From positions 1 through 43,967 of the forward strand of contig JAIRVT010000101.1 in NCBI GenBank assembly GCA_031253755.1: a stretch of DNA of 43,967 bases, written 5' to 3'. The DNA comes from Enterobacteriaceae bacterium (GTDB lineage Bacteria > Pseudomonadota > Gammaproteobacteria > Enterobacterales > Enterobacteriaceae). Within the stretch, counting starts at the first letter, position 1; each line of letters opens with the position of its first letter. The notes under the pieces were generated by a model. The model saw nothing but the letters and a program-made list of their open reading frames with translations. It was not told the origin of the DNA and searched no databases. The translations under genes were made by a program, and so were the position numbers. This document shows positions 3,682 to 20,512 of this stretch, one piece after another.

Positions 3682-4332
3682 TCATCTTTCAACACTGAGT
3701 TGGAGTCCCAAGATCTGGCAGAATTTTTGCACCAGAATGGGATGTACATCTTCAACAGTGATCCCCGCTACAAGGTCACTGAGCTGAATCATTTGCATTC
3801 CTGTATAACCACACGGGTTGATACGCAAAAAAGGTTGCAAATCCATCGCAATATTCAGAGCCAGCCCGTGGAAAGAACAGCCTTTTCGGATCCGCAATCC
3901 CAGCGAGCAAATTTTACTGCCGTTAACATAGACACCCGGCGCATCCGGTCGGGCATAAGATTCGACACTAAAATGCGCTAAGGTTTGGATAACCGTTTCT
4001 TCAATCGCGGTGACGAGCTGGCGAACGCCAAGTTTAGCCCGTTTCAAATCGATCAGGATGTACATAACTTGCTGACCGGGGCCATGATAAGTCACCTGAC
4101 CTCCACGATCGGACTGAATAACCGGAATTTCACCGGCGGCAAGTATGTGCTCTGGTTTGCCCGCCTGACCTTGTGTAAACACCTTTTCATGCTGAACAAG
4201 CCAGATTTCATCAGGCGTTTCCGCTGTACGCTGTTCGGTGAACTGGTGCATAGCGTCAGAAACCGGTTTGTAAGGCTGAATACCCAACTGGCGTAAAATG
4301 ACGGTGTTATGTTGCAAGGGGAATGTCATCAT
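3682..4332 (-). CDS. lipB: Octanoyltransferase LipB
   Basis: 216 aa. Transfers octanoate from octanoyl-ACP to lipoyl domains, the step before LipA. The active-site lysine is K140 in [15 protein letters not shown] and the catalytic cysteine is C174 in [12 protein letters not shown]. The [18 protein letters not shown] block (about 74-91) is the family hallmark. Two ATGs lie in tandem at the start (4332 and 4329) and neither has a strong ribosome site. In E. coli its upstream neighbour is ybeD-dacA; here that neighbour is more than 16 kb away because the aerobactin island sits in between. Confidence 0.97.
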
Positions 4333-4369
4333 CTGTTAACAAAAATTGCCCGTCAGTATAACGCCCCGA

Positions 4370-4398
4370 AAGGATTCTCACCAGTTTGAGAATGCCTT
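4370..4398. repeat. Inverted repeat in the lipB/trkH divergent promoter region
   Basis: AAGGATTCTCA (4370-4380) faces TGAGAATGCCTT (4387-4398) across a 6-base loop. It gives 11 pairs with one bulged G, in the 147-bp spacer between the divergent lipB and trkH genes. It could be an operator or a leader hairpin for either gene. No matching regulator motif is recognised. Confidence 0.35.
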
Positions 4399-4479
4399 AA
4401 TCCAATAATAATCTTAATTAGACGGATATGCTTAAATTTTATATTATTATGGTCATATATTTTCTGTTTGAGTAAACAG

Positions 4480-5940
4480 ATGGTCAGAAAAAACCAACTC
4501 TTGATTGTTGGGCGCCTTTGTAGTTTTTTAGTGCTCCTTTACAGTCTCTCTATGTTATTCCCTATTTTGGTTGCTTTATTTTATAAAGAAAAAAGTGGTT
4601 TTGCTTTTTTCGACACGTTTCTCATTGGTTTCGCGTTTGGTGGCATTGGCTGGTATTTCACCCGAAAAACGAAAACACAGCCCAGCACACAAGATGGCTT
4701 CCTCATCATTGTTTTGTTCTGGTTACTTTTTTCATTGCTCAGCGCATTGCCTTTCATATTGGATGACAGTCTGGATATGAGCCTTGCTGATGCCATGTTT
4801 GAAGGAGTGTCAGGAATTACGACCACGGGCGCGACAGTGCTGAATAATGTTTCTTCATTATCGAAGTCAATGCTGTATTACCGTGCGCAACTCAACTTTA
4901 TCGGTGGCTTGGGAGTGATTGTTCTGGCGGTGGCGATTTTGCCGCTGCTGGGTATTGGTGGCGTAAAACTTTATCAGTCTGAAATGCCCGGCCCTTTTAA
5001 AGAAGAGCGATTGACGCCACGTCTTGCTGACAGCGCCAAAAGCCTGTGGTTGGTATATCTGCTGCTTGGTGCAGTCTGTTCCCTGAGTTTCTGGGCGGCC
5101 GGTATGTCATTTTTCGATGCCGTATGTCATGGGATATCCACCGTTTCGTTAGGGGGATTTTCGACCCGTAATGAGAGCCTTGGCTATTATGATAATTCCA
5201 TGATTGAAATAGTCGGCGGGATTTTCTCAGTATTATCAGCGGTTAACTTTACACTTTATTTTGTCGCCCTGACACGGCGTAGCCTAAAGCCTATCCTGAG
5301 AAATGCGGAATTCCGGTTTTTCTTGTTGGTACTTGCCATTGTGGTGATCATTATTTGGCTGGAATTATACCGTTCCGGTATGTACGGCGTGAAAGACGCT
5401 TTTGTACACGGTTTCTTAATGACCAGTTCGATGATGACAGATAATGGCCTGACGACATCCGATTACGCCCAATGGCCGCCCCATACTATGTTGATGTTAC
5501 TGGCGATCAGTTTTTTTGGCGGTTGTGTCGGTTCGACATGCGGAGGAATCAAAGCGCTGCGTTTTCTGATCCTGACGAAGCAGAGTTTCAGTGAAATTAA
5601 TCAGCTCACTCATCCTAATGCGATTTCAACGATAAAAGTCGGTCAATCTGCGGTACAGGAAAGGGTTCTGCATTCAGTCTGGGGTTTCTTCTTCCTGTAT
5701 GTTTTTTTCAGTTGCTTCTTTATTTGGGTGCTGAATCTGCTGGGTTATGATTTGGTTACATCATTTGCCACGGTTGCAGCATGTATCAATAATATGGGCG
5801 TCGGTTATGGCGGTACAGCACAGGGTTTCGGCGATCTGAGTGCTGTGGCGAAATGGCTAATGTGTGCAGCGATGTTGATGGGACGATTGGAGATTTACCC
5901 CATTCTTATCTTATGTTCGAAAACATTCTGGCGTTTTTAG
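4480..5940 (+). CDS. TrkH-family potassium uptake protein (divergent)
   Basis: 486 aa from ATG 4480 (weak TGAG site 6-7 bases upstream); an in-frame TTG at 4468 would add four residues. About ten transmembrane helices. The four pore loops of the Trk/Ktr/HKT fold are visible: GITTTGATV, GISTVSLGGFST, MMTDNGLTTSDY and INNMGVGYGG, each keeping the key glycine. GGCVGSTCGGIKALR and the C-terminal GRLEIYPILIL-FW also match TrkH. The family translocates K+ (or Na+) with a cytoplasmic TrkA ring; no trkA is nearby. The P3 and P4 loops differ from E. coli TrkH (TTAGFTT and NNLGPGLG as I recall them), so this is likely a second, paralogous transporter rather than the housekeeping copy. Confidence 0.88.
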   Translation: MVRKNQLLIVGRLCSFLVLLYSLSMLFPILVALFYKEKSGFAFFDTFLIGFAFGGIGWYFTRKTKTQPSTQDGFLIIVLFWLLFSLLSALPFILDDSLDMSLADAMFEGVSGITTTGATVLNNVSSLSKSMLYYRAQLNFIGGLGVIVLAVAILPLLGIGGVKLYQSEMPGPFKEERLTPRLADSAKSLWLVYLLLGAVCSLSFWAAGMSFFDAVCHGISTVSLGGFSTRNESLGYYDNSMIEIVGGIFSVLSAVNFTLYFVALTRRSLKPILRNAEFRFFLLVLAIVVIIIWLELYRSGMYGVKDAFVHGFLMTSSMMTDNGLTTSDYAQWPPHTMLMLLAISFFGGCVGSTCGGIKALRFLILTKQSFSEINQLTHPNAISTIKVGQSAVQERVLHSVWGFFFLYVFFSCFFIWVLNLLGYDLVTSFATVAACINNMGVGYGGTAQGFGDLSAVAKWLMCAAMLMGRLEIYPILILCSKTFWRF

Positions 5941-5963
5941 CCGCTAAGGCAAACATATCGCAG

Positions 5964-5998
5964 AACCCTGACGCCTCGCACTGCGAGGCGTCAGGGTT
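5964..5998. terminator. Strong bidirectional intrinsic terminator
   Basis: A perfect 16-bp stem (AACCCTGACGCCTCGC, 5964-5979, with its complement at 5983-5998) and a 3-base loop ACT sit between the convergent trkH-like gene and iutA. Plus-strand read-out continues TATTC; minus-strand read-out continues CTGCGA. The long GC-rich stem makes two-way termination likely despite weak T-tracts. Confidence 0.85.
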
Positions 5999-6026
5999 TA
6001 TTCACAATGTTGAAACCGCTTAGGGA

Positions 6027-8291
6027 TCAAAAAGCAACGGAATAGCCCAATGAGAATGCCCGGCCGCGACCTTTGTAACTGTATAAGTCAGGCTCACCAT
6101 AAGTTGGGCTATACAGATAGGCTGCGCGTTGCCCCCAAATAGTGGTGTAATCTTTATTCAGCAGGTTTTCAATACTGAAATTAAGCTGCCCGACCGGTAA
6201 ATGATAACTGCCGAGGAAATCGATGGTATTGTAGCCTTTAATCTTTTTCCCCTTAGCATCAGAGATGCTAAACGCCTGTTGTGATTGCAGACGCAGCTCC
6301 CAGTCATCCGGCGCCCAGTTAACGTAAGCCGTCATTTTCGATGGGCTGCTCTCATCAACTTTCAGCTTCTGCCACTTGCCGCTTTCCTGAGTTTCAGATT
6401 TAAGAATGTTGAAGCTGGTTCCGGTACTCCATTCACTGTTATCAAAGAAATAATCCACCGCACCTTCTAAACCATAAATGCGTTTTTTGTTCGGTTTCAA
6501 AAAGATAGTCATATCGGCTTTATTAATATCCGTCGTGATATCAGACAGGGAATAATAAGCGGCTATCTGTGAGCGCAGGTTATCGCCGTTATAACGCCAG
6601 CCCAATTCATAGGAATTGACCTTAATGCCTTTTAGCTTACTTCCCTTAACATTCATCCCACTCTTCAATGGATAGTGGCTACTTTTATCAGCTTCCTTAT
6701 ATGTTCCTGTACCGTAATATTTTCCGACATCCGGCAGATCAAATCCTTGTGAAAAATTAAACCATGCTTGCTGGCGTTCAGTCAGATTGGCAAGTATGCC
6801 GGCATTAAACAGGTAGTTATTGTAGCTGGCTTGACCACCGGGGATCGCATCCGCCGTTTCGCCTTTTTTATTTTCGGCCATTTTTTGTTGCTGGTTATAA
6901 GAGATGAAATCATCAACCTTATTACGGATATATTGATAACGCAGGCCACCGTTAATCGTGAATATTGGATTGATGTCATAACTGGCCTGAAAGAAGGAAG
7001 CCAGATTGGTGGTGGTATAACCCGGATAACGGCCGATATTAAAATCGTTTTTCAGTTTCAATCCTCCCGTTTCTTTTGCTCTATCTAAATCAAAGAATTG
7101 TTGATCGGCACTGAATTTTTCATGCTCCGCATCAAAACCGTAGGTCAATGTCAGGCTGTCAATCGGCTGGCTGTTCAGTGTTATTTTGCTACCGTAAAAA
7201 TCGGTTTTTTGTTCAGAAGAACCGATACTGACGACATTTCCCCATATAGTCTTATCGTTTTTGTCTTTCCCTAAATTTGCCCGTGTCGGAAAAGGATAAA
7301 ACGACATTGACTCATCGCGGTAAAATACCTGAGCCACTAAATCCTGCCCCCAAAGATCAGAATTGGAGTATTGCAGGTTAATCAAATGGCGTTCAGTGCC
7401 GGGAAGACGATCCGAATCCAATCCTTTGGAATTCTTAGCCTGAGTTTTGCCTAATACCGCATCAAAGTTTTTTCCAAGATAAACACCATGCTTGCCATCG
7501 GCTTCACTTTTATAATATTGGGTTGTCAGTTGCAGTTGCTGGTGTTCATCGATATTCAGGACACCGGTTCCCATCACATCAATACGGTCAGAAAATTGCA
7601 GGCCGGTTTGGGTATTGTCGATTAAAACCTCATGGCCTTTGCCATCATACCAGCCGCCAAAACGCTGGTAAGCGACAGAAAAACGCCCGGTGGCTCTGTC
7701 ATTGCCACCACTGATCGAAGCAGCGATATTTTCATCGTGATCTTTATGGTTGGCAAAACCACTTTTGCTGCCAACTTGCAGTTCAGAATGTATCCCTTTC
7801 TGCCCTTTTTTCGTGACAATGCTGACTATCCCGCCGGTACTGCCACCACCATAAAGCGCGGTTGCACCAGAAATTACTTCAATATGGTCAATATTAAATG
7901 GATCGATAGAATCCAGCTGACGGCTGTTTAAGCGGGAAGAATTCAGGCGCACTCCATCAACCATAACCGCCATTGAGCGCCCGCGCATATTCATACCATA
8001 ATTGGTGCGCCCCTGACTGCTGACATCCATACCCGGAATCAGTTGCGACAGAATATCCTTGAACTCTTTACCGCCGTTGATTTGTTGTTGAATATCACGG
8101 CCTTCTACCACCCAAGTTGTTTGTGCCATTTGTGCAGCACTCTTATGGGTACGGCTGGAGGAAACAACAATGTGATCTTCTTTTACATCCTTTGACTCTG
8201 CGGCCAAAACCGAGGGCGTCAGAATAACAGACAAACAGGAAGGAATAATTAAAAAAGGTCTGGCTCTAAAATAGCAACGCATTATCATCAT
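6027..8291 (-). CDS. iutA: TonB-dependent ferric aerobactin receptor IutA
   Basis: 754 aa. A signal peptide (about 1-31, ending VLAA) is followed by a TonB-box-like DHIVVSS near 39, then the plug domain with MAQTTWVVEGRD, GRTNYGMNMRGR, DGVRLNSSR and IEVISGATALYGGGSTGG. A 22-strand barrel ends in the terminal phenylalanine (SLGYSVAF). Long stretches match my memory of pColV IutA, including the late YTTIWGQRA. It imports ferric aerobactin across the outer membrane using TonB energy. It is the last gene of iucABCD-iutA, 86 bp after iucD. Three in-frame ATGs cluster at the start; AAGG at the best distance favours 8288. It is probably iron-repressed from the Fur site upstream of iucA. Confidence 0.96.
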   Translation of the reverse strand: MMIMRCYFRARPFLIIPSCLSVILTPSVLAAESKDVKEDHIVVSSSRTHKSAAQMAQTTWVVEGRDIQQQINGGKEFKDILSQLIPGMDVSSQGRTNYGMNMRGRSMAVMVDGVRLNSSRLNSRQLDSIDPFNIDHIEVISGATALYGGGSTGGIVSIVTKKGQKGIHSELQVGSKSGFANHKDHDENIAASISGGNDRATGRFSVAYQRFGGWYDGKGHEVLIDNTQTGLQFSDRIDVMGTGVLNIDEHQQLQLTTQYYKSEADGKHGVYLGKNFDAVLGKTQAKNSKGLDSDRLPGTERHLINLQYSNSDLWGQDLVAQVFYRDESMSFYPFPTRANLGKDKNDKTIWGNVVSIGSSEQKTDFYGSKITLNSQPIDSLTLTYGFDAEHEKFSADQQFFDLDRAKETGGLKLKNDFNIGRYPGYTTTNLASFFQASYDINPIFTINGGLRYQYIRNKVDDFISYNQQQKMAENKKGETADAIPGGQASYNNYLFNAGILANLTERQQAWFNFSQGFDLPDVGKYYGTGTYKEADKSSHYPLKSGMNVKGSKLKGIKVNSYELGWRYNGDNLRSQIAAYYSLSDITTDINKADMTIFLKPNKKRIYGLEGAVDYFFDNSEWSTGTSFNILKSETQESGKWQKLKVDESSPSKMTAYVNWAPDDWELRLQSQQAFSISDAKGKKIKGYNTIDFLGSYHLPVGQLNFSIENLLNKDYTTIWGQRAAYLYSPTYGEPDLYSYKGRGRAFSLGYSVAF

Positions 8292-8377
8292 CTACCTTAT
8301 ATTTTGGTGTCATTAATAACGATCAGTACTGCTGTTATGAAGAAACGTTTTTGCGAAAAAACAGGTAAAAATACCGA

Positions 8378-9679
8378 TTAACTCGCATTAGAAAAGGCTT
8401 GCACAGGTTCGCTGCGCCACTTAATCACATTGGGAAGCAGGGATAAATCAAAGTGATCCTTGCCCAATACCCGGTTTAAAATGCGAGCCGAACGCCACGC
8501 CATTAAGCTCATTTGCGGCTCTGCAATGCCATGGCTGAACATACCGGCATTCACCGCAAATAAATGATGGTCAGCAGGGCCATTCCAATCTAGCGTAAAA
8601 TCAGGGTTCATTTGGTATCTGCCTGCCTGATCGGTATGCAGTTTTGTGGCTAACGGCTCAAGAAAAGCCGGTGCTGTTGGTTGATAACCGGTCGCGAAAA
8701 TAACAACATCACTGTCAATATATTCATTGCCATGATCCAAAAGATGCTGGGTCAGCAAGCGATAACTGTCCTCATGTTGCTGCATATCCAATAATGCCCG
8801 GCTGGGTAGCAACTTGGCCCACGGTGTTTCGCGCAGCACCTCAAATCGGTGGTACATGGCCTGATAGATAGCCAGTAAAGAATCGCTGGTGATGCCGTCA
8901 GACGTCATTTTTTGTTCTTTCAGCATCTGCTGTTTGACTTCAGGCCGGAGACTGTAAAAACTTTCGACATACTCTGGCGTAAAGTATTCATTGGAAAATG
9001 CCGCTTCATCCAGCGCATGATAATTATTGCGCCGGGAGATCCAGTTAAGCTGTTTGGGGCGCCCCCACTCACTACGGAAAATATTGAGGAAAATATCCGC
9101 ACCACTTTGCCCGCCACCCACAATGGAAACACGCTTACCCGTAAGATCCGGATGACGCAACATCATTTCAGCTGCATGGAAACAGTGATCGTTTTGTGTT
9201 TGTACACACGCAGGTAATTTGATTTGTTTACCGATGCCCATACAGATATGGCGGGCAAAATAGTGATGATGGGTTGTTGAAACCTTAAATAACTGTTCCT
9301 GCTCATCAAAAGTGACACTCATGACTTCTTCACCAAATCGTAGGGAGTCTAATTCTTGTGCTGCCCATGCAAGGTAATCACCAAATTCTTCGCGGGAAAC
9401 GGTGCGCTGTTCTGTCGTCAAAAAGCGGTAAAATTTTTTCCTCTTAACCAGATAATTGAGAAAACTAAACGGATTGGTTGGATCGACTGCACTCACCAAG
9501 TCTTTCAAAAAACTGGTCTGCATATGACATTCCGGCAACATAATGCCTGAGTGCCACGAAAAACGTGATGAGCGCTCTAAAAACAGGCTATGGAAATTAG
9601 GAATATGGCGGCTCAACGCCGCGATACTAAGGTTAAAAGGCCCTATTCCAATACCAATGAAATCATAAGGCTGGCTCAT
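8378..9679 (-). CDS. iucD: L-lysine N6-monooxygenase IucD
   Basis: 433 aa. FAD- and NADPH-dependent enzyme that hydroxylates the side-chain nitrogen of lysine, the first step of aerobactin synthesis. FAD motif GIGIGPFNLSIA at residues 8-19; substrate/FAD region HMQTSFLKDLVSAVDPTNPFSF; NADPH motif VGGGQSGAD around residue 190; ATGY motif FATGYQP near 330; and the C-terminal HGIAEPQMSLMAWRSARILN. The ATG overlaps the iucC stop (ATGA, 9676-9679), showing tight coupling. Length is close to the known IucD (about 425-445 aa). Confidence 0.97.
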   Translation of the reverse strand: MSQPYDFIGIGIGPFNLSIAALSRHIPNFHSLFLERSSRFSWHSGIMLPECHMQTSFLKDLVSAVDPTNPFSFLNYLVKRKKFYRFLTTEQRTVSREEFGDYLAWAAQELDSLRFGEEVMSVTFDEQEQLFKVSTTHHHYFARHICMGIGKQIKLPACVQTQNDHCFHAAEMMLRHPDLTGKRVSIVGGGQSGADIFLNIFRSEWGRPKQLNWISRRNNYHALDEAAFSNEYFTPEYVESFYSLRPEVKQQMLKEQKMTSDGITSDSLLAIYQAMYHRFEVLRETPWAKLLPSRALLDMQQHEDSYRLLTQHLLDHGNEYIDSDVVIFATGYQPTAPAFLEPLATKLHTDQAGRYQMNPDFTLDWNGPADHHLFAVNAGMFSHGIAEPQMSLMAWRSARILNRVLGKDHFDLSLLPNVIKWRSEPVQAFSNAS

Positions 9680-11511
9680 CGTTCAAATTCCTTGTGAGCA
9701 ATAAAGAGAGGGTTAGCGAGATCCTGACTATATTCCGGTAGCATACGGTTGCCGCCGTCATGGTCGGAATACATCAGTTTTACCGGATTCAATATCACGC
9801 GAATGATTTGTGGCTTGAATAAATCGAATAGTGCAAAACGCTCATTCATAGCCGGGTGCTGCTGTCGCTGTTTTTGCATGTAGCGCTGTAATACTTCCGC
9901 CAGAATTTGGTAAAACCGCACTTCACTCATACCGTATTTTTCCAACAGCGGAGAAATAAATCGCAGGACAGTCACAAAATGACCGGTTTGTAAATCGTGA
10001 ATAAGATAATCGGCCGATAGACGTACCGTGACGTCTTTTACCCGTTGAGGTAACGAAGCCGCTTCCGGGAAATTCTGATCGATTAAACGCATATCCCCCT
10101 GAAAATCTTTTAACAATATTCTCTGCGGTACGTTATTTTTCATCACCAAAGTAATGTTCTGCCCATGTGCGATCAGTGATACACCGTAGCGACACATCAG
10201 GTGATAGAAAGGAATGATGACAGCCTGAAACATTTGCTGTAACCAATTTTCTATGCTCAGCCCGGAACGTTCTATATAGGCCATAATCAGCGGAACGCCG
10301 TTGTTATCACTTTCCATCAGCGTCGCCATTAAAATCGCCTGCTCTTCTGCCTGCAAATAACACGCGGGATTTTCACGCCAGATAACGCCCAGCATTTCCT
10401 GATAGCGGTATGGCGCTTTAGCAAGCCGGGCATAGGCAGGATGCGCCATGTAGCCCGCTGCGGGTTCACCGAGGATCTGTGCGCCGCTGGATTGTAAAAC
10501 CGAGTCTTGAGCAAATTGTTGCTGTAACCAGTGTGAGGCCGCAGGGCCTGCGCTGATATATTTGCCCGGAATGCCGCGATAACAGGACGTGTTATAAATC
10601 GTCAATGGCAGTTTGATATCAAATGCAACTCTGCGGCTGACATTGGTTAAAGTACGTAACGATTGCTGAGCGAGATAATCGTCACCGAATTCCCCCAGTT
10701 CAACCAAATCGCCACAAGCCAGTTGAGGCAGGAAATGCAGCGCAATTTTTTGCTGCCATTGCCACGGATGCAGCGGTAATGGCAGCCAGTCATCCGTCAG
10801 TTTGAGTTCATGCCAGCGTTGGTTAAAGCGCTGGCGTTCAACGGAATTCATGGTGCTCGCCAAAAGTGCATCGAGTGAGCAGGCATCATCCATACACCAA
10901 ACAAACACATTCCGTTTAACCGCGACCCAGTGCAGCCGGAAGCGGTTCTGATATTCCGGCGCATAGCGATGCAAAGCCTCTAAACCCCAGCCACGGCGGC
11001 CTTTGTTGAAAATAAATTTAGGATGGGCAGAAAGCAGGCATTGAAGCTTAACAGGATCAAGTTCAATCAGTTCCTGAGCACTCATATGACGGCGGGCAGA
11101 CAATAACCGGAGATCCCCGCGCAAGGTGGCGTACAGATCTTCCATATGTTCTGCAACCTGTGCATCACTCATACCCAGTACCTGCGCAAGCTGACGTAAT
11201 GTATGGTCAGCGGCTAACGGTTCATGCTTATTTGTCAATAAATCGGTACTTGTCAATAAATCGGCACTTACCAATGAATCAGGATCAATGACAAGCCAGC
11301 CCCAAATGCTGCGTTTGGCGGAAAAAGTATAGCTAACCTCTCCCAACCGGATGTACCAATGTGCGCCGGTAAACCCGGCATTCAGCGTGCGCTCATATTC
11401 CAATTCGGCTAAAATTTTGGCGATCATCCGACGATTGACATATTCCCAATCCGCATACGATTCGTTGAACGATCCACTGAATGAACCATGAAAATCACCT
11501 GACTGTTTCAT
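9676..11511 (-). CDS. iucC: Aerobactin synthetase IucC
   Basis: 611 aa, NIS (NRPS-independent siderophore) synthetase of the IucA/IucC fold with a C-terminal FhuF-like/iron-transporter domain. It joins the second N6-acetyl-N6-hydroxylysine to the citryl intermediate made by IucA, finishing aerobactin. Motifs: LSAHPKFIFNKGRRGWG, LPLPLHPWQWQQKIA, IKLPLTIYNTSCYRGIPGKY, ILGEPAAGYMAHPAYARL and IAHGQNITLVMK. The N-terminus has about ten extra residues ahead of ADWEYVNRRMIAKILAELEYE. A repeat-coded stretch, LVSADLLTSTDLLTNKH, is inserted near residue 80. The start overlaps the iucB stop by 4 bases. Confidence 0.97.
   Translation of the reverse strand: MKQSGDFHGSFSGSFNESYADWEYVNRRMIAKILAELEYERTLNAGFTGAHWYIRLGEVSYTFSAKRSIWGWLVIDPDSLVSADLLTSTDLLTNKHEPLAADHTLRQLAQVLGMSDAQVAEHMEDLYATLRGDLRLLSARRHMSAQELIELDPVKLQCLLSAHPKFIFNKGRRGWGLEALHRYAPEYQNRFRLHWVAVKRNVFVWCMDDACSLDALLASTMNSVERQRFNQRWHELKLTDDWLPLPLHPWQWQQKIALHFLPQLACGDLVELGEFGDDYLAQQSLRTLTNVSRRVAFDIKLPLTIYNTSCYRGIPGKYISAGPAASHWLQQQFAQDSVLQSSGAQILGEPAAGYMAHPAYARLAKAPYRYQEMLGVIWRENPACYLQAEEQAILMATLMESDNNGVPLIMAYIERSGLSIENWLQQMFQAVIIPFYHLMCRYGVSLIAHGQNITLVMKNNVPQRILLKDFQGDMRLIDQNFPEAASLPQRVKDVTVRLSADYLIHDLQTGHFVTVLRFISPLLEKYGMSEVRFYQILAEVLQRYMQKQRQQHPAMNERFALFDLFKPQIIRVILNPVKLMYSDHDGGNRMLPEYSQDLANPLFIAHKEFER
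11232..11285. repeat. Three 18-bp tandem units inside iucC
   Basis: TTGTCAATAAATCGGTAC (11232-11249) is followed by TTGTCAATAAATCGGCAC (one mismatch) and a more diverged third unit to 11285. Being 18 bp, it keeps frame and encodes (S)TDLLT / SADLL repeats absent from the IucC proteins I recall. Confidence 0.85.
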
Positions 11512-12518: not shown

Positions 12519-14440
12519 TGGGCCACCTTTAAATCTGTTTTTTTGCAATCAGAAGTTTTGCGATCAGAAGTTTTGCGGTCAAAAGTTTCGCCCTTGAACG
12601 GATTGGCAAAGTCGAAATAAATCAGGGCGGGATCAACGATGGTGTTTTCATTATGATCGTGCAGATAACAAAAGAAATTGCCTTTGCAGTTCCAGTGGAG
12701 ACTATCGAGAACATAATCCAGACAGCGGGTATTTTTAGCCGTTATCCGTAAGCGTGCGAGCGCATCGCGTACCCGCGCCATCAGGTTTTCTTCCCGATCA
12801 AAGCCCGCCGCCCCCATCGCAGCGGTCACGGCCAGTGTTGAATTTACCAGCAAATAATAGGGGAAATAGCGCAGTAATTGGCGTTCGGTGAAACAGTTTT
12901 CGGCATTAGTTTCACCAATTTCCTCCAGCCATAATCTGGCACTTTCGGTAAAACCACTGCCCTGACAATCCCGGTATAGCAGGCCAACCGGTAAATCCTG
13001 ATCCATTTCCAGTAGAATATTTTGCTGATGGGCTAACAACACCAGACCGTAATCCGCTTCGGCACTGAACAACGGCAGCAGCACATGATGGCAGTACGCA
13101 TCCAGCCAACGATAAGCCGCTTGTGTCAAAGATAAGTTAAGACGAGTACTCAAGCGCCGCACCGAGGCAGCCAGCAAGCTGTCGCCACCATCGGGTGCGG
13201 CCTGTGTTAACGTCACAAGGACGTTGGTTTGCGTTTGTGGACAATCAAACAGTAAGTTGACGCGAAATACCATCAGGCTTTCATCATGGATCACACCTTC
13301 CGCATCACGCAAACCGGCCCAGCCATCTTCCTGCATCACGCGCATGGATGGATAACGGGTTTGTAATTCCTGCCAGCGCGGAGTCTGCGCTAACTTCGCC
13401 AATCTGATACCCCGTTTTACCTCTTTCACAGACAGGGTTCTGATGGAGTTGGTCAGGCGGATACTGAGCGAAAACTTGATCATATCCTGATTGGTTTCGT
13501 TATAGAGCGAACGTGAGGAGCTGGTGGGTTTCCACTGCACTCCCGCTTCACCTAAATCCTGTAAATGGCCGTCCTGTATCAGCGCCTGAACCCAATCTTG
13601 CTCCAGCAGATAATCCGCCTGCCACGGGTGCATTGGAATCACCCAGATATCGTCGGAAAAGTGCTTGAGTAAATGCGGTGCACTTTCAGCCGTGAAGCGC
13701 TCTAAACGCTGTTTTAACGTCAGACTCAGGTTTTCTCCATAAACGTAAGTCTGCTCGACGGCAAACCAGCGTAGCGGAAAACTGGCGGCAAAATCAGGCA
13801 GGTAACGCCGGGCTTGCAGGCTATCGAAAGGTTCGTGGGATTTTGGCGCGGGATGGAAAGCGTGTCCGGCTAACAGACCCTGCTCTGCTTGGACAAAATT
13901 TAGCGGCTTGTCACGCAGGTGCGGCCAATCAGGACGAGCGTTGATGGCCTGCCGGGTATTGTCATGACTTTCCAGTACCCGACGATAAAAACTGGCGATC
14001 GTGTCGTCTGATAACGTGTTATTTAACTGTCTATTTTTTAAAGAATTATTTTCCAATAAACTATTTTCTAATAACAGACGCACAAATTGCCCCATCTTTA
14101 ACATGTGATATGCGGCATCATTTTCGTGTTTATTATTTATATGTTTATTATTTCCTTGATAACAATTTTTCTGATAAACATAGGCAGGAAACCAGTATTG
14201 GTGATGCTGTGTTGGTGAAATATAGCGCAAAACAACCCGAATCGATTGCTGTTCAGCGAGCGGAATGACTAATTGTGAATAAGGAAAATCCAGAGTCGCA
14301 GGCAGGATTTCCCAATTTTTCGTTTCACGAATCAATGAGTTAACAAAACACTGTGCGGCAACATCCGTTTTGAAGTGACTCTCCTGCGGGTAAACCGACC
14401 GGAGGTGATTAGAATCTAGACATATCGGTTGTGTAGACAT
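12515..14440 (-). CDS. iucA: Aerobactin/citryl NIS synthetase IucA
   Basis: 641 aa from ATG 14440; an in-frame TTG at 14449 would add three residues, and neither has a clear ribosome site. NIS synthetase that condenses N6-acetyl-N6-hydroxylysine with a prochiral carboxyl of citrate. Motifs: EQGLLAGHAFHPAPKS, VIPMHPWQADY, KFSLSIRLTNSIRTLSVKEVKRG, RVMQEDGWAGLRDAEG, GGDSLLAASVRRLSTRLNLS, VLLAHQQNILLEM and the C-terminal NCKGNFFCYLHDHNENTIVDP. Two low-complexity insertions occur at about residues 95-135 (NNKH repeats, then LLENSLLENNSLKN), plus a repeated tail (RKTSDRKTSDCKKTD) after the conserved end, all coded by 15-bp tandem units. First gene of the operon, divergent from the ShiF-like gene. 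Confidence 0.97.
   Translation of the reverse strand: MSTQPICLDSNHLRSVYPQESHFKTDVAAQCFVNSLIRETKNWEILPATLDFPYSQLVIPLAEQQSIRVVLRYISPTQHHQYWFPAYVYQKNCYQGNNKHINNKHENDAAYHMLKMGQFVRLLLENSLLENNSLKNRQLNNTLSDDTIASFYRRVLESHDNTRQAINARPDWPHLRDKPLNFVQAEQGLLAGHAFHPAPKSHEPFDSLQARRYLPDFAASFPLRWFAVEQTYVYGENLSLTLKQRLERFTAESAPHLLKHFSDDIWVIPMHPWQADYLLEQDWVQALIQDGHLQDLGEAGVQWKPTSSSRSLYNETNQDMIKFSLSIRLTNSIRTLSVKEVKRGIRLAKLAQTPRWQELQTRYPSMRVMQEDGWAGLRDAEGVIHDESLMVFRVNLLFDCPQTQTNVLVTLTQAAPDGGDSLLAASVRRLSTRLNLSLTQAAYRWLDAYCHHVLLPLFSAEADYGLVLLAHQQNILLEMDQDLPVGLLYRDCQGSGFTESARLWLEEIGETNAENCFTERQLLRYFPYYLLVNSTLAVTAAMGAAGFDREENLMARVRDALARLRITAKNTRCLDYVLDSLHWNCKGNFFCYLHDHNENTIVDPALIYFDFANPFKGETFDRKTSDRKTSDCKKTDLKVAQ
12541..12585. 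repeat. 15-bp tandem units at the 3' end of iucA
   Basis: Three near-identical units beginning TTTTGCAATCAGAAG (12541, 12556, 12571), with a fourth partial unit after 12586. In frame they encode the DRKTSDRKTSDCKKTD tail of IucA that is not part of the enzyme family. Confidence 0.9.
14126..14155. repeat. 15-bp tandem duplication within iucA
   Basis: GTGTTTATTATTTAT (14126-14140) is followed by ATGTTTATTATTTCC (14141-14155), encoding the NNKHINNKHEN stretch. A similar pair of 15-bp units around 14046-14075 encodes the LLENSLLENNS stretch. Both fall in a poorly conserved part of the N-terminal half. Confidence 0.82.
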
Positions 14441-14462
14441 TGGATTCAAATTTATCGTTGTT

Positions 14463-14493
14463 GATAATAATTCTCAAAATGATATTCATTTGA
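14463..14493. promoter_or_regulatory. Overlapping Fur-box-like sites between iucA and shiF-like gene
   Basis: GATAATAATTCTCAAAATG (14463-14481) matches 13 of 19 positions of the Fur consensus GATAATGATAATCATTATC. CAAAATGATATTCATTTGA (14475-14493) also matches 13 of 19 and contains the perfect palindrome AATGATATTCATT (14478-14490). Two overlapping sites in the 130-bp divergent promoter region would let iron-loaded Fur repress both the synthesis/receptor operon and the export/import operon. Consensus from general knowledge; matches counted by eye. Confidence 0.75.
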
Positions 14494-14570
14494 TTTATTA
14501 TGTAAAGAGTTTTGTGTATTATGCTCACAATTTATAAATAACCACTTTCTTTTAACAACATAAAATTAAT

Positions 14571-15785
14571 ATGCGGGTTAAGCCTTATTTCTTTGCGAAT
14601 CAAAGCCAAACATCATCCAATTGGTCACTCGCCTTTTGTGCTGGTTTATTGGGCATTGGGCAGAATGGCTTACTGGTTGCACTGCCTGTGCTGGTGGAAA
14701 TGACGCCTCTCTCTTTATCTGTTTGGGCCGGGTTACTGACACTCGGCTCCATGCTTTTTTTGGTGGGATCACCATTTTGGGGTAGGCAAACGGAAATTTA
14801 TGGCAGTAAGTTTGTCGTACTGGCAGCGCTATCAGGGTATTTGCTGAGTTTCATCATCATGGCACTGACGGTGTGGGGTATGGCTGTCGGCGAGCTTTCT
14901 ACACCAATCGGCTTAAGTTTACTGATTATCGCCCGAATTATTTATGGCCTGACCGTATCCGGCATGGTGCCCGCCTGCCAGACATGGGCGTTACAGCGAG
15001 CAGGAACAGCACGGCGAATGGCAGCACTGGCAACCATCAGCTCAGGTTTAAGTTGTGGCCGTTTGCTGGGGCCAATGTGCGCAGCATCCGTACTGGCATT
15101 GCACCCACTGGCACCCTTATGGCTGATGGCAATCGCCCCACTGATTGCCATGCTGGTGATTATCAAGGAATCCAGCCCACCTCCTTTGGCTCAGGAAATT
15201 CAGCAAAAAAACCAGCTTCACTGGGGCATCACTCCTTATTTGTTATGTGCGGTTCTGCTCGCTGCCTCTGTGAGTTTGATGCAGCTTGGTTTAGCGCCTC
15301 GCTTATCCCTGTTATTCGGTGTGCAAACTGCGATCATCAGCCGCCATGTGGCGATTTTGCTGAGTGTATCGGCAGTCGCAACCCTGCTTGCTCAGTTCCT
15401 GATTATTCGCCCGCAAAAACTCACGGCACTGCAATTGTTGCTTTGCGCCAGTGTCGTGATGGTATCGGGCTTGTCGTTAATGTCCATTCAGCATATTGCG
15501 CTGTTTTATCTGGGATGTGCCCTGACTGCATTTGGGTCAGCAATGGCGACACCCGGCTATCAACTTTTATTGAATGAGCGTTTCTCGACCGGTAAAAGTG
15601 CAGGGTTTATTTCCACCAGCCATACGCTTGGGTATGGAATGAGCGCGTTAGCCGTTCCGGTTATCGCTGCATGGTATGGCGAGTCTCAATTGATCATGGC
15701 ATCACTGGCTTCAGCGGTTTTATTGGGCGCGATTGCAGGATGCCTATGGCATTTTTCGCACAGAAGAATCAGCAACAAAATGTAG
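14571..15785 (+). CDS. shiF: MFS transporter, ShiF-like putative aerobactin exporter
   Basis: 404 aa, about 12 hydrophobic helices of the major facilitator superfamily. An acidic/aromatic FWGRQTEIYGSKFVV loop after helix 2 serves as the MFS A-like motif. Placed head-to-head with iucA, the same place shiF occupies in aerobactin islands of Shigella and pColV, where it is linked to aerobactin output. It begins a plus-strand operon with a SIP-type reductase 19 bases later and fhuCDB. The start at 14571 has only a poor ribosome site. The gene-level name rests on position and family; substrate is inferred. Confidence 0.82.
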   Translation: MRVKPYFFANQSQTSSNWSLAFCAGLLGIGQNGLLVALPVLVEMTPLSLSVWAGLLTLGSMLFLVGSPFWGRQTEIYGSKFVVLAALSGYLLSFIIMALTVWGMAVGELSTPIGLSLLIIARIIYGLTVSGMVPACQTWALQRAGTARRMAALATISSGLSCGRLLGPMCAASVLALHPLAPLWLMAIAPLIAMLVIIKESSPPPLAQEIQQKNQLHWGITPYLLCAVLLAASVSLMQLGLAPRLSLLFGVQTAIISRHVAILLSVSAVATLLAQFLIIRPQKLTALQLLLCASVVMVSGLSLMSIQHIALFYLGCALTAFGSAMATPGYQLLLNERFSTGKSAGFISTSHTLGYGMSALAVPVIAAWYGESQLIMASLASAVLLGAIAGCLWHFSHRRISNKM

Positions 15786-15804
15786 ATGTTTGGGAGAGAT
15801 GATT

Positions 15805-16713
15805 ATGTCTTCAGGTTACGGTATTTTTGATTTGTACCTCAAAGAACAAATTGTGATATCACCCTCAATATTGCGCTGTGTTTTTCGGGGGCCAGAGGTA
15901 CATCAAATGCAACGTTATGCACCGGATCAGCGCATCAAACTACTGTTTCCTACTTCGGATAGTCTCAGGTTGAAGCCAGAGAGCGGAAACAACTGGCATC
16001 GTGATTATCTGTCCATGCCTAGAGAGCAACGGCCACTGATGAGAACGTATACCATCAGAGCGTTGCGGAATGCGCAGCAGGAGATGGATGTGGAATTTGT
16101 GCTGCATGGTCATAACAGCCCGGTATCGAATTGGTTATCCCGCGCCAACACCGGAGAACTGTTGCAGGTTATTGCGCCGAAAGGAAAATCTCAGGCAGCT
16201 CTGGAAGGGTGCGAATGGAAACCCTCTCCTCAGGTCCGGCAATCACTTCTGATTGCGGATGAAACCGCACTGCCCGCCGCATTGGGAATACTTGAGCAAT
16301 TGGCACGACAGGATAATCCGCCTCAGGTACAGGCATTTTTTGAGGTGCCGACAGCCGCGGATTGCATCAATGTAGCGCAATTTACCTTTGCTGATGTTTT
16401 TTGGCTTCCCAGAGAGGAGAAATATCATTACGGTGAAAGGCTACTGGAATCTGTCCGCCAACATGCGGTTATTCCTGAATCAGCGTGTATGCAGGTTCAA
16501 CCTGTCATTGAAACGGATTCGCCAGAGGAACAATTATGGGAGCGGGCAGAAAAAGAAAATAATACGCACCATTTTTATGCCTGGATAGCGGCCGAATCCT
16601 CCTCAGTCAAAAAACTGCGCCATTATTTCATCCTTGAGCGGCATCTGGATCGTCACACTGTTAACTTCATGGCGTATTGGTCTAAATCTTCATCCAGAGG
16701 AAACAAGGTTTGA
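15805..16713 (+). CDS. Siderophore-interacting protein (SIP/ViuB-type ferric reductase)
   Basis: 302 aa from ATG 15805, chosen because GGGAG ends 8-9 bases upstream; ATG 15799 lies directly on the ribosome site. The flavin-binding RTYTIRALR motif (about residues 81-89) is followed by FVLHGHNSPVSNWLSRANTGE and a G-K-rich loop, as in the SIP family (ViuB, YqjH) of NAD(P)H/FAD enzymes that reduce ferric siderophores in the cytoplasm and free the iron. C-terminal FYAWIAAESS...LR matches the family end. In this operon the substrate is most likely ferric aerobactin brought in by FhuBCD. Its stop overlaps the TTG start of fhuC. Confidence 0.88.
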   Translation: MSSGYGIFDLYLKEQIVISPSILRCVFRGPEVHQMQRYAPDQRIKLLFPTSDSLRLKPESGNNWHRDYLSMPREQRPLMRTYTIRALRNAQQEMDVEFVLHGHNSPVSNWLSRANTGELLQVIAPKGKSQAALEGCEWKPSPQVRQSLLIADETALPAALGILEQLARQDNPPQVQAFFEVPTAADCINVAQFTFADVFWLPREEKYHYGERLLESVRQHAVIPESACMQVQPVIETDSPEEQLWERAEKENNTHHFYAWIAAESSSVKKLRHYFILERHLDRHTVNFMAYWSKSSSRGNKV

Positions 16714-17507
16714 TTGGAAGCAATTCATCGCCCGCCTCTACTTTTGCCTTACAGCAGGTGAGTTTTGCTGTACCGGGCAGGCGGCTACTCAATAATTTTT
16801 CAGTCACGTTTGCACCGGGATTAGTGACCGGGCTTATCGGGCATAACGGCTCAGGGAAATCCACTTTGCTGAAAATGCTTGGGCGTCACCAATTACCCAG
16901 CGAAGGCGCAATACAGCTCGGAGAGCGTTCATTGGCGCAATGGAACAGTAAAGCATTCGCCCGTGAAGTGGCTTATTTACCTCAGCAATTGCCTCCCGCA
17001 GAAGGAATGACGGTACGTGAGCTGGTTGCCGTGGGGCGCTATCCTTGGCATGGGGCGCTGGGACGCTTTAGTCGCGAAGATAGCAAATGTGTCGAAGAGG
17101 CCATTGAGCTGGTCAGCCTGAATTCGATGGCGCATCGGCTGGTGGATAGTTTGTCCGGTGGTGAACGCCAGCGGGCATGGCTGGCAATGACGGTAGCACA
17201 AAATAGCCACTGTTTGCTGCTTGATGAGCCGACTTCCGCATTGGATATCGCTCATCAGGTCGAAGTTATGGCATTAATTCAGCGACTCAGCCGTGAACGT
17301 GGCCTGACTGTCATTGTGGTCCTGCATGATATCAACATGGCGGCACGTTATTGTGACCATTTAGTCGCACTGCGTGGTGGTGAGCTGATTGCACAGGGAG
17401 TACCTGACAAAATCATGCAGGAACAGGTATTGGAACAAATATATGGCATACCGATGGGTATTTTGCCGCACCCAACGGGTGGAACGCCGATAAGTTTTGT
17501 CTACTGA
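16710..17507 (+). CDS. fhuC: Ferric hydroxamate ABC transporter ATPase FhuC
   Basis: 265 aa, TTG start at 16710 with GAGG nine bases upstream and a 4-base overlap with the preceding stop. Walker A GHNGSGKST (44-52), Q-loop LPQQLPPAEGMTV (90-102), signature LSGGERQ (148-154), Walker B LLLDEP (169-174), H-loop H206 in VLHDINMA. Near-identical blocks to E. coli FhuC (AYLPQQLPPAEGMTVREL, GRYPWHGALGRF, YGIPMGILPHP). It drives import of hydroxamate siderophores, including aerobactin, across the inner membrane. No fhuA receptor gene is beside it; iutA plays that role here. Confidence 0.95.
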   Translation: MIGSNSSPASTFALQQVSFAVPGRRLLNNFSVTFAPGLVTGLIGHNGSGKSTLLKMLGRHQLPSEGAIQLGERSLAQWNSKAFAREVAYLPQQLPPAEGMTVRELVAVGRYPWHGALGRFSREDSKCVEEAIELVSLNSMAHRLVDSLSGGERQRAWLAMTVAQNSHCLLLDEPTSALDIAHQVEVMALIQRLSRERGLTVIVVLHDINMAARYCDHLVALRGGELIAQGVPDKIMQEQVLEQIYGIPMGILPHPTGGTPISFVY

Positions 17508-18424
17508 TGAACAAATATAACTCCGGCGTTAATCGCCGCCATTTTCTGGCTGCTCTGGCTCTTTCCCCATTATGGGGATCATCGCTGGTTCGTGCTGCCA
17601 CTGCGCCACATATAACGCCGTCACACCCAGACCTGAAACGAATCGCCGTGCTGGAATGGTTACCGGCCGATCTTTTGATGGCTTTGGGCGTGATACCGTT
17701 AGCTGTCGCCGATATTCATAATTACAACTTGTGGGTACAGCAGCCCGCACTGCCATCTGGGGTTATCGATCTCGGTACGCGTGCTGAGCCGAATATGGAA
17801 TTGTTGCAGCAATTAGCGCCATCATTAATCCTCTATACCCAGAATTATGGCCCTTCAATTGAAAAAATGTCCTCAATTGCACCAATAATGGGGTTCAGCC
17901 TCAAAGACCCTCACCAGACACAACTGACACTGGCATTTAATTCGTTAAAACGGCTCGCTGAACGACTTGAACTTAACCATCAGTACGATCTTCATCTGCG
18001 GTATTTCCAGCAACAGATAGAGCAAAGCCAGCAACGGTTACGTTCTTGGAAAAATGTCCCGATCCTGCTATTTACGTTATTGAATAATGACAATGTGATG
18101 GTTTTCGGCAAGGGAAGCATCTTTCAGGATGTCATGGATAAATTAGGGTTACAGAATGCGTGGCAGGGGAAAGTCAATGCCTTTGGCAACCAAACGATTG
18201 GCATCGAGCAACTGGCGACCATTCGGGATGCGAAAGCCATCGCCTTTACGCCTGACAACGACACGTTACTCGCCCGTATGCAACGAACACCCCTGTGGCA
18301 ATCTTTCCCGTTTGTACAACGCTATCCGGTGAGTGTTCAGCCTGCGGTATGGCTGTATGGCGCAACATTATCTGCCCTGCGTTTTTGCCAGTTATTGACC
18401 GCAGCACTGGAGAATCGGTCATGA
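17507..18424 (+). CDS. fhuD: Periplasmic hydroxamate-siderophore binding protein FhuD
   Basis: 305 aa. The N-terminus NRRHFLAALALSPLWGSSLVRA carries a twin arginine and an AxA-like cleavage region, as in E. coli FhuD, so Tat export to the periplasm is likely. Matches to FhuD: AVLEWLPADLLMALGVIPLAVAD, LGTRAEPNMELLQQLAPSLI, NAWQGKVNAFG and AVWLYGATLSALRF. It binds ferric hydroxamates and hands them to FhuB. The start overlaps the fhuC stop (TGATG) and the stop overlaps the fhuB start (ATGA). Confidence 0.94.
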   Translation: MNKYNSGVNRRHFLAALALSPLWGSSLVRAATAPHITPSHPDLKRIAVLEWLPADLLMALGVIPLAVADIHNYNLWVQQPALPSGVIDLGTRAEPNMELLQQLAPSLILYTQNYGPSIEKMSSIAPIMGFSLKDPHQTQLTLAFNSLKRLAERLELNHQYDLHLRYFQQQIEQSQQRLRSWKNVPILLFTLLNNDNVMVFGKGSIFQDVMDKLGLQNAWQGKVNAFGNQTIGIEQLATIRDAKAIAFTPDNDTLLARMQRTPLWQSFPFVQRYPVSVQPAVWLYGATLSALRFCQLLTAALENRS

Positions 18425-20400
18425 GGCGTTTATGGGTTTTGCCCTTGTTACTGCTGGCGCCCGCCCTGTTGCTAACGGCATATAATCTGCAACAACAGTT
18501 GCCCGTATCCCAATGGCTACAATCTTTACTCGCCCCCGAACTCAAAAATATCCACCAAGTTGTCGCGCATTACAGCACATTGCCACGTTTGGTCGTATCA
18601 TTATTGGTCGGTGCGGGGCTGGGGCTGGCTGGGCTATTGTTTCAACAGGTGTTGCGAAATCCCTTAGCAGAGCCTGCGACACTGGGCGTATCAGCCGGTG
18701 CTAAATGTGGTATGACAATGGCACTGTTATTGGCGATCTCGCCAGATAGCGTGTTGATGCAGTTAGCCGCGCTGGCTGGAGCGATTGTGGTCGCGCTGAT
18801 GGTGTTTGGGCTGTCATGGGGGCGGCGGTTATCTCCGGTCACGCTGATCCTTGCGGGCTTGGTGGTGGGATTGTACTGTGGCGCCGTTAACTCTCTGTTA
18901 GCGCTGTTTAACTACGAAAGATTGCAAGGCATGTTCATCTGGAGTAGTGGCTCACTGGTTCAGCATGATTGGCAGGTTGTCGAGTGGCTGCTGCCGATGC
19001 TGCTGATCTCCCTGTTGCTGACATTCTTATTGTTGCGCCCCTTAACCTTGCTTGGGTTGGATGACGGCGTTGCTAAAAACCTCGGATTGGGGCTGAACAG
19101 TGCCCGGTTAGCGGCATTATCATTGGCTGTTGTGATGAGTGCAGTCATTGTCAATGTCGTTGGCGTTATTGGTTTTATCGGGCTCTTTGCACCTTTGCTG
19201 GCACGTATGTGTGGCGCAAGACAATTGCGGCAACAAATTATAATGGCGCCATTAATTGGCGCTTTGCTATTGTGGCTGACTGATCAAGTGGTGCAATGGC
19301 TGGCTACGGTCTGGCACAATCTTCCGACCGGTTCTGTTGTCGCTTTATGCGGCGCGCCGATACTATTTTGGCTGTTGCCTCGTCTGCGTACCAACGGTGA
19401 AAAAACCACACTTTCAGCAACTAGCAAAAATCAAATCGTCGTTGAACGTCAGGCGCTCTGGCGATGGTGTTGGGCTGGGGTATTGTTGCTGATAATTGCC
19501 ACTGCCGTTGCCCTGTTATTTGGCCGCAGTGCCTCAGGCTGGTACTGGGCGCAGGGTGAGCAAATTGCGGAATTACTGCCTTGGCGCTGGCCGCGTGTCA
19601 TGGCCGCACTCAGCGCTGGTATGATGTTGGCTGTCGCAGGAACGCTTATCCAAAAATTAACCGGAAATCCCATGGCCAGCCCGGAAGTTCTGGGCATAAC
19701 GTCAGGTGCATCATTAGGCGTACTGGTATTGTTGTTGATGACATCCGGTAATGTTTTTGTCTGGCTATTGCCGGCGGGCAGTCTGGGTGCGGCTATCACA
19801 CTGCTGTTGATCCTGTTTATCTCATCCCGGCAGGAATTTTCAGCTCAGCGCATGTTACTATCCGGCATTGCCATCAGCACGGTATTCGGCACTTTGGTGG
19901 CATTAGTGCTGGCGAGTGGCGATCCCCGTTCCGGGCTGTTATTGGCATGGCTATCCGGTTCAACTTATTCCGTCGAACCCACACAAGCGCTTTTCACTTT
20001 CTTGGCCGCATTCATACTGATCGCACTGACTCCCCTGTTCCGCCGATGGTTAACGGTTTTACCGCTGGGAAGTATCAGTGCGCAGGCGGTGGGCGTATCG
20101 CTGGCACGTTCGCGCTTGCTGATTTTACTGATAGCGTCCGCACTGACTGCGGCAGCAACATTAATGACCGGGCCATTAAGTTTTGTTGGCTTGATGGCGC
20201 CACACATGGCTCGCATGATGGGTTTCAGACGGGCAATGCCCCAACTGGTTATCGGTATGTTGCTGGGCGGATTATTAATGCTGCTGGCGGATTGGTGCGG
20301 GCGAATGGTGTTATTCCCTTACCAGATACCGGCTGGCCTGCTCGCGGCATTTATTGGCGTGCCTTATTTTATTGTGCTGCTACGGAGGCAGGCAAAGTAG
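18421..20400 (+). CDS. fhuB: Ferric hydroxamate permease FhuB (duplicated FecCD permease)
   Basis: 659 aa from ATG 18421, matching the usual 660-aa FhuB; the frame is open from 18295, but the ATGA overlap with fhuD fixes the start. Two fused FecCD/BtuC-like halves, about 20 helices. First half has LPRLVVSLLVGAGLGLAG, QQVLRNPLAEPATLGVSAGA and IGFIGLFAPLLARM; second half has WPRVMAALSAGMMLAVAGTLIQ, TGNPMASPEVLGITSGAS and SFVGLMAPHMARMMG. Those paired loops contact FhuC. Last gene of the operon, ended by a terminator at 20445. Confidence 0.96.
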   Translation: MRRLWVLPLLLLAPALLLTAYNLQQQLPVSQWLQSLLAPELKNIHQVVAHYSTLPRLVVSLLVGAGLGLAGLLFQQVLRNPLAEPATLGVSAGAKCGMTMALLLAISPDSVLMQLAALAGAIVVALMVFGLSWGRRLSPVTLILAGLVVGLYCGAVNSLLALFNYERLQGMFIWSSGSLVQHDWQVVEWLLPMLLISLLLTFLLLRPLTLLGLDDGVAKNLGLGLNSARLAALSLAVVMSAVIVNVVGVIGFIGLFAPLLARMCGARQLRQQIIMAPLIGALLLWLTDQVVQWLATVWHNLPTGSVVALCGAPILFWLLPRLRTNGEKTTLSATSKNQIVVERQALWRWCWAGVLLLIIATAVALLFGRSASGWYWAQGEQIAELLPWRWPRVMAALSAGMMLAVAGTLIQKLTGNPMASPEVLGITSGASLGVLVLLLMTSGNVFVWLLPAGSLGAAITLLLILFISSRQEFSAQRMLLSGIAISTVFGTLVALVLASGDPRSGLLLAWLSGSTYSVEPTQALFTFLAAFILIALTPLFRRWLTVLPLGSISAQAVGVSLARSRLLILLIASALTAAATLMTGPLSFVGLMAPHMARMMGFRRAMPQLVIGMLLGGLLMLLADWCGRMVLFPYQIPAGLLAAFIGVPYFIVLLRRQAK

Positions 20401-20411
20401 TTATAAAAGAT

Positions 20412-20441
20412 GCAGTCATAAAATAAGCAGTCATAAAATAA
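20412..20441. repeat. 15-bp tandem duplication after fhuB
   Basis: GCAGTCATAAAATAA occurs twice back to back (20412-20426, 20427-20441), 11 bases after the fhuB stop and just before its terminator. Same unit length as the repeats inside iucA, iucB and rlpA. Confidence 0.92.
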
Positions 20442-20444
20442 GCA

Positions 20445-20475
20445 CAAAGCGCTGGTTTTATTTACCAGCGCTTTG
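20445..20475. terminator. Bidirectional terminator between fhuB and ybeD
   Basis: CAAAGCGCTGGT (20445-20456) pairs perfectly with ACCAGCGCTTTG (20464-20475), a 12-bp stem with a T-rich 7-base loop, followed by TTGAT. It separates the convergent fhuB and ybeD genes and marks the right end of the inserted island. Confidence 0.83.
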
Positions 20476-20512
20476 TTGATAACCGAACTTTATCGATCAG
20501 CGAATTTGTCTA

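Follow-up and report, generated by a model that had tools for sequence, protein, structure and literature searches.

An aerobactin-type iron block between lipB and ybeD in Xenorhabdus: probably an old acquisition followed by repeated piecemeal loss

Introduction

How did a complete set of aerobactin-type genes come to lie between two core genes of Xenorhabdus, and for how long has it been there? The question is raised by the stretch of DNA analysed here (the window: 43,967 nucleotides of contig JAIRVT010000101.1, assembly GCA_031253755.1), in which the genes lipB and ybeD are spaced 16.2 kb apart, the intervening sequence (positions 4333–20512) holding a gene of the Trk potassium transporter family, called trkG below, and an aerobactin-type locus with adjoining transport genes, called the iron block. 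This separation is confirmed: the same arrangement is present in a second Xenorhabdus genome, G173, and an assembly error is therefore excluded.

The genus Xenorhabdus, to which the window belongs, comprises insect-killing bacteria that are partners of nematodes, and aerobactin loci composed of iucABCD and iutA with shiF occur on enterobacterial plasmids and chromosomes. Among named loci, the closest are those of X. stockiae, X. beddingii, X. budapestensis, X. innexi, X. hominickii and X. anantnagensis. Our search of the literature found no report of the lipB–ybeD slot or its relics in the titles and opening parts of abstracts of the papers listed. In the same genus, X. szentirmaii has a producing, virulence-related aerobactin iuc cluster according to the accessible part of one paper (PMC9177418), and a review, in its accessible part, considers that Xenorhabdus aerobactin clusters were probably taken up by a few strains individually (PMC11547657). 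The reading to which our comparison leads, an old acquisition, differs from the latter view as that part of the review presents it.

Results

Block-derived sequence occupies the slot in most Xenorhabdus genomes

LipB, YbeD and the Trk protein were each found in all 30 Xenorhabdus genomes compared, including the window genome (G000; 3.02 Mb, 83% complete), and the Trk gene stands beside lipB in every one of them. Between trkG and ybeD, block-derived sequence is present in 22 of the 30 genomes, or in 20 without G154 and G155 (Table 1), so that the block is not a strain-specific insertion, and the clean insertion proposed in a preliminary description of the window does not hold. The relics retain the strand and order of the block; in X. 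hominickii (G158), for example, a minus-strand piece of iucA lies to the left of the sequences of the major facilitator superfamily (MFS) transporter, the siderophore-interacting FAD reductase (SIP) and fhuC.

Table 1. Contents of the slot between trkG and ybeD in 30 Xenorhabdus genomes. Estimated contamination is 7% in G158 and in G159; the lipB region is present twice in G165, and one copy was used.
Contents	Number	Genomes
Full block; same slot, order and orientation	2	G000 (window), G173
Receptor, fhuCDB and SIP-B; iuc and MFS genes absent	1	G167
Intact SIP-B alone	5	G151, G152, G161, G163, G175
Intact SIP-A; pieces of iucA, MFS, fhuC and fhuB; shortened TetR gene	1	G158
SIP-B pieces (with a receptor piece in G174 and a fhuB piece in G166)	10	G149, G166, G176, G153, G012, G150, G157, G170, G162, G174
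fhuB 3' end (more weakly in G154 and G155)	3	G159, G154, G155
No detectable trace	8	G156, G160, G164, G165, G168, G169, G171, G172

Of 90 non-coding control gaps nearby in these genomes (15.4 kb, against 14.9 kb of slot gaps tested), none matched at E 0.01, and none of 165 shuffled relic queries produced a match under E 0.001. Six matches to shuffled queries were below 0.01, so the protein matches of the G155 relic (3e-3) and of the G166 fhuB piece (2e-3) lean on the corresponding DNA matches (2e-6 and 1e-8). At the thresholds used, all matches to FhuB (3 of the 30 genomes), IutA (3), IucA (2) and SIP (12) lie in this slot, and the search for relocated copies of these four elsewhere in the genus found none; in the incomplete window genome, the fhuB of the block is the sole FhuB match at E 1e-60.

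The reductase gene exists in two forms at two places, SIP-A between the MFS gene and fhuC (G000, G173, G158) and SIP-B after fhuB (G167) or alone. A TetR-family gene lies between fhuB and ybeD in G173 (locus L029, 19037–19657) and is shortened in X. hominickii; the window has 112 bp at that place.

The block is probably old in the genus

A flank tree was built with IQ-TREE from 3002 columns of eight flank proteins, among them that of trkG, and another with FastTree. In the IQ-TREE topology the clade of the window (support 100) stands opposite the rest (75), with one full copy on either side of this deepest split; in the FastTree topology the full copies span the next split, and the traces still span the deepest. 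Parsimony for the presence of any trace on the IQ-TREE tree requires five changes if the root had the block and seven if it had not (six and seven without G154 and G155).

For the block genes, the comparison took in at most 14 outside loci, each genus being represented by a single genome, from 14 of the 18 outside genomes that have IucA. The Xenorhabdus copies are monophyletic in the iucA, iucB, iucC, iucD, MFS and iutA trees (FastTree support 0.97–1.00), and the Xenorhabdus reductases form one clade in which SIP-A and SIP-B are sisters (ultrafast bootstrap 100 for both together, 99 for SIP-A and 76 for SIP-B). The rooted SIP-B tree of six genomes repeats the topology of the flanks, some of its nodes being weak (56, 74), and the trees of fhuB and the receptor are likewise consistent with the flanks. 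Synonymous divergence between G000 and G173 is close to saturation both in the block (proportion of differing synonymous sites 0.67–0.77) and in the flanks (0.61–0.73), and a recent exchange between these two genomes is therefore excluded. In the nearest sampled genus IucA was found in none of 12 genomes, a null that alone is weak evidence; by comparison, this query gave matches in 19 of 149 genomes.

The trkG gene stands beside lipB with or without the block

The preliminary description included a trkH-like gene in the insertion. The Trk family assignment stands; the gene, however, is TrkG-like rather than TrkH by sequence comparison, the identity of the Xenorhabdus protein being 61% with E. 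coli TrkG and 44% with the TrkH of its own genome, and its score against the TrkH equivalog NF008020 being 475 bits, below the cut-off of 866. Since it stands beside lipB in all genomes with or without the iron block, its attribution to a strain-specific insertion was rejected. The E. coli TrkG is that of the Rac prophage; in contrast to it, the Xenorhabdus gene has no prophage in view, and it may be a chromosomal relative of that prophage-borne gene. Relatives at 67–75% exist in Serratia, Buttiauxella and some other genera, and no lipB, ybeD or iuc gene was found in their flanks (up to 10 kb per side, some shorter). Of the nearest sampled genus (probably Photorhabdus), G138 was the single genome checked for this; its lipB and ybeD are adjacent, without trkG.

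Gene content of the block

The contents of the lipB–ybeD interval given in the preliminary description were borne out, with their coordinates, by family searches and open reading frame positions (Table 2). Some gene starts were refined by reading the sequence; that of trkG was placed at 4480 as most relatives have stops within the longer open reading frame match. The iron block proper spans 6027–20400, with five minus-strand genes (receptor, iucD, iucC, iucB, iucA) followed by five on the plus strand. It is a complete, ordinary aerobactin-type set of known gene families in an unusual place.

Table 2. Features of the lipB–ybeD interval and its flanks (window coordinates).
Feature	Position	Strand	Basis
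lipB, left core flank	3682–4332	-	NCBIfam NF010922, 351 bits (cut-off 235); 30/30 genus genomes
trkG, TrkG-like K+ transporter subunit	4480–5940	+	Pfam TrkH family
Terminator-like perfect inverted repeat of 17 bp where the trkG and receptor genes converge	5964–5998	no strand	
iutA-like TonB-dependent receptor	6027–8291	-	TIGR01783, 403 bits (cut-off 223.5); plug and barrel
iucD-like L-lysine/ornithine N-monooxygenase	8378–9679	-	Pfam PF13434, 378 bits
iucC-like aerobactin synthase	9676–11511	-	PDB 6cn7 (IucC), 841 bits; next relative 248 bits
iucB-like GNAT acetyltransferase	11508–12518	-	Pfam PF13523, 169 bits; ATG at 12518 from sequence
iucA-like aerobactin synthetase	12515–14440	-	PDB 5jm7 (IucA), 787 bits; ATG at 14440 from sequence
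Fur-box-like site in divergent promoter region 14441–14570	14462–14476		TGATAATAATTCTCA, 1 mismatch
MFS transporter, likely siderophore exporter	14571–15785	+	Pfam MFS_1; same place in 10/11 tabulated outside iuc loci
SIP-A, siderophore-interacting FAD reductase	15805–16713	+	Pfam PF08021 and PF04954; start from sequence
fhuC, ABC ATPase	16710–17507	+	NF007863, 495 bits (cut-off 433)
fhuD, substrate-binding protein	17507–18424	+	NF007864, 355 bits (cut-off 252)
fhuB, permease	18421–20400	+	NF007868, 995 bits (cut-off 943); ATG overlaps fhuD stop
Hairpin, most simply ybeD terminator (core feature)	20444–20476	-	Similar ones beside ybeD in block-free genomes
ybeD, right core flank	20513–20776	-	NF003447, 159 bits (cut-off 86); 30/30 genus genomes

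The IucA/IucC pair scores much higher against the solved structures of aerobactin synthases than against those of other NIS synthetases, and the iucB and iucD genes lie on one strand, overlapping or adjacent, in the same operon. The iucD-like gene is 67% identical to plasmid genes that adjoin annotated iucC; the relatives of its protein in PDB include lysine and putrescine hydroxylases with similar scores, and lysine specificity is putative. The best equivalog of the receptor is RhtA (711 bits, under its cut-off of 1100), and its position is as in other iuc loci, with an identity of 61–72%; it is a TonB siderophore receptor and a candidate for the cognate IutA. The MFS transporter is presumably ShiF-like.

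The enterobacterial iucABCD–iutA loci have the same biosynthetic gene set, order, strand and terminal receptor, and the divergent MFS gene is common to the block and most of them. The adjacency of MFS and SIP genes occurs in 8 of 11 tabulated outside loci and an adjacent fhuCDB in only 1 of 14, that of Candidatus Fukatsuia symbiotica (G147, identified from the 15 kb searched of its contig C2, which matched at 100%); the window block has both. The ten-gene order of this aphid symbiont, iutA-iucDCBA followed by MFS-SIP-fhuCDB, is identical to ours. Its block, however, lies elsewhere in the chromosome, away from lipB–ybeD (C1, 640000–654500), and its genes group with those of G078, G016 and G032 and not with Xenorhabdus, with varying support. 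In the same symbiont SIP and, elsewhere, ybeD were each matched in two pieces.

The families represented suggest a self-contained, complete circuit of aerobactin type, its product being predicted from them. The iucABCD enzymes would make a hydroxamate siderophore that the MFS protein would export; the TonB-dependent receptor with FhuCDB would import the ferric siderophore and the SIP reductase would release the iron, the whole being repressed by Fur from the divergent promoter region. Within two mismatches, the site found there is the only one in the window; 25 of 100 window shuffles contained one or more matches of that quality. G173 has one Fur-like site at the corresponding place, and a chance match arose in 25 of 200 shuffles of its locus. 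As chance matches are this common, it is the position and the recurrence that carry weight. The 19-mer Fur consensus gave a weak result, 80 of 2000 shuffles of the divergent region reaching the same score.

Island features, boundaries and surroundings

No tRNA gene lies within the window, and no integrase was seen among the open reading frames scanned against families (some small ones lay outside that scan), as the preliminary description had it. The longest word common to both block edges is 7 bp, the shuffled mean being 7.3. The composition check it had proposed gave a modest difference in GC content at third codon positions, 0.499 in the ten block genes and 0.448 in 23 core genes (p 0.004; some gene starts in this count are unrefined), which could reflect an origin that is foreign but old, or else differences between classes of genes. 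Thus, among the features of mobile islands, integrase, tRNA and repeats were not seen, the composition differs modestly and a patchiness due to recent gain is not found. The arrangement is neither the same in all close relatives nor uniform with the core in composition, and the relics indicate that the patchiness is mainly due to loss. The strong terminator described on the right is a real hairpin; we rejected it as a boundary of the block, similar hairpins being visible by eye beside ybeD in block-free genomes such as G172, G160 and G168. Scans for promoters (29 against 29.5 in shuffles) and terminator-like sites (17 against 21.7) gave no excess.

The identified genes flanking the interval are core genes. 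Beside crcB, positions 516–2139 of the window are AT-rich and contain a gene for Hcp, the tube protein of type VI secretion systems, a DUF2645 gene and an open reading frame for 263 amino acids without a Pfam or NCBIfam match. In another genus (G082, locus L043, 2710–8550) the lipB–ybeD gap carries a gene for an inverse-autotransporter/invasin-like protein of 1946 amino acids, so this junction has accepted a different large insert elsewhere. Among the family survey rows viewed, the gap is usually 0.02–0.25 kb and is about 0.7–1 kb in G003, G046, G060 and G143.

Discussion

The presence of block sequence at one slot in 22 of 30 genomes implies that the ancestor most likely had the block and that most lineages have lost it. 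We consider it probable that a single acquisition placed the iron block between trkG and ybeD before the sampled Xenorhabdus diverged, and that it was then lost piecemeal many times while trkG stayed. The outcomes of this loss would be the full block of the window and G173, the uptake genes with the reductase in G167, SIP-B alone in five genomes, and short scars or nothing in the others.

Several observations weigh against this reading. The relics of G154 and G155 are the weakest, 18 codons each with E values of 2e-4 and 3e-3, and shuffled queries reached 1e-3; both have DNA matches too (6e-4 and 2e-6). The deepest split of the flank tree is uncertain, FastTree placing G152/G153 first (0.45), and the support of other inner nodes is 35–61. 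The fhuC tree is weakly discordant with the flanks (0.76). SIP-A and SIP-B stand at different places and no genome has both, which makes the ancestral order uncertain. The block genes differ modestly from the core in codon use as well as in third-position GC (p about 0.004). Finally, a trace of the biosynthetic genes is found in only 3 of 30 genomes, and parsimony with equal costs slightly prefers their absence from the root (3 against 4); with gains costing three times as much as losses, their presence at the root is favoured (5 against 8).

The trkG gene may have come before the iron block or with it. A joint arrival in the Xenorhabdus stem as one 16-kb piece, of which only trkG was universally kept, would be compatible with the loss proposed above and near the view of the preliminary description, though ancient. 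Both elements lie between lipB and ybeD, where G138 has neither; the fetched flanks of the trkG relatives, however, contain no iuc gene, and the nearest outside iuc loci have no match to trkG, which was among the queries. We regard a joint arrival as possible but rather unlikely.

The flanks are homologous in all 30 genomes, and the block could have been spread between Xenorhabdus species by recombination through them after one acquisition, as the discordance of fhuC might indicate. The near-saturation of synonymous sites makes any exchange between G000 and G173 an old one, and the topologies of SIP-B, iutA and fhuB follow the flanks, so that such a spread seems improbable to us. It is also quite improbable that the ancestral block was an uptake-only one (iutA, fhuCDB and SIP-B) to which some lineages later added iucABCD, MFS and SIP-A: the rarity of iuc traces and the uptake genes without synthesis in G167 fit this explanation, yet the three lineages with iuc traces occupy separate parts of the flank tree, order and slot are the same in the two full copies, and the full ten-gene form exists outside Xenorhabdus, in Ca. 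Fukatsuia symbiotica. Repeated, independent insertion of related aerobactin blocks at a preferred slot is very improbable, since, even with two block forms (the SIP-A type of G000, G173 and G158 and the SIP-B type of G167 and the lone sites) and equal-cost parsimony on the biosynthetic genes favouring gains, no unrelated gene was seen in the slot (all open reading frames of at least 60 codons in its 27 shorter gaps are SIP, SIP overlaps, relics or TetR), an integrase, tRNA and flanking repeats were not seen, and the Xenorhabdus block genes, SIP-A and SIP-B together included, are monophyletic.

In the five genomes in which the reductase stands alone, SIP-B is intact (307–308 codons), and the ratio of nonsynonymous to synonymous substitution rates is low, 0.13 between G151 and G163 and 0.11 between G161 and G175. 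A Fur-like site with at most one mismatch lies upstream of SIP-B in G151, G163, G175 and also G167; the best site of G161 has three mismatches, and in G152 no site within three mismatches was found. Of the five lone-SIP-B gaps, three have a site with at most two mismatches in their first 400 bases, the mean for mononucleotide shuffles being 0.042. This purifying selection and the Fur-like sites in three of five genomes suggest that lone SIP-B may have been retained for a role independent of aerobactin, that is, reused. We put forward, tentatively and with rather less than even confidence in the whole, a parallel dismantling of the inherited circuit in many lineages, in which synthesis was lost and uptake kept at least once (G167), and in which the orphan, Fur-controlled SIP-B was several times kept under purifying selection for the release of iron from another hydroxamate siderophore. 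Its putative new substrate could be, for instance, putrebactin or avaroferrin of the genus, or a siderophore obtained from neighbours.

On the reading of an old acquisition with later loss, a virulence-related siderophore locus looks like an ancestral trait in retreat, and a patchy gene cluster need not imply recent transfer. The slot preserves the intermediates (full block, uptake only, reductase only and scars), which makes ideas on siderophore loss and cheating testable within one genus.

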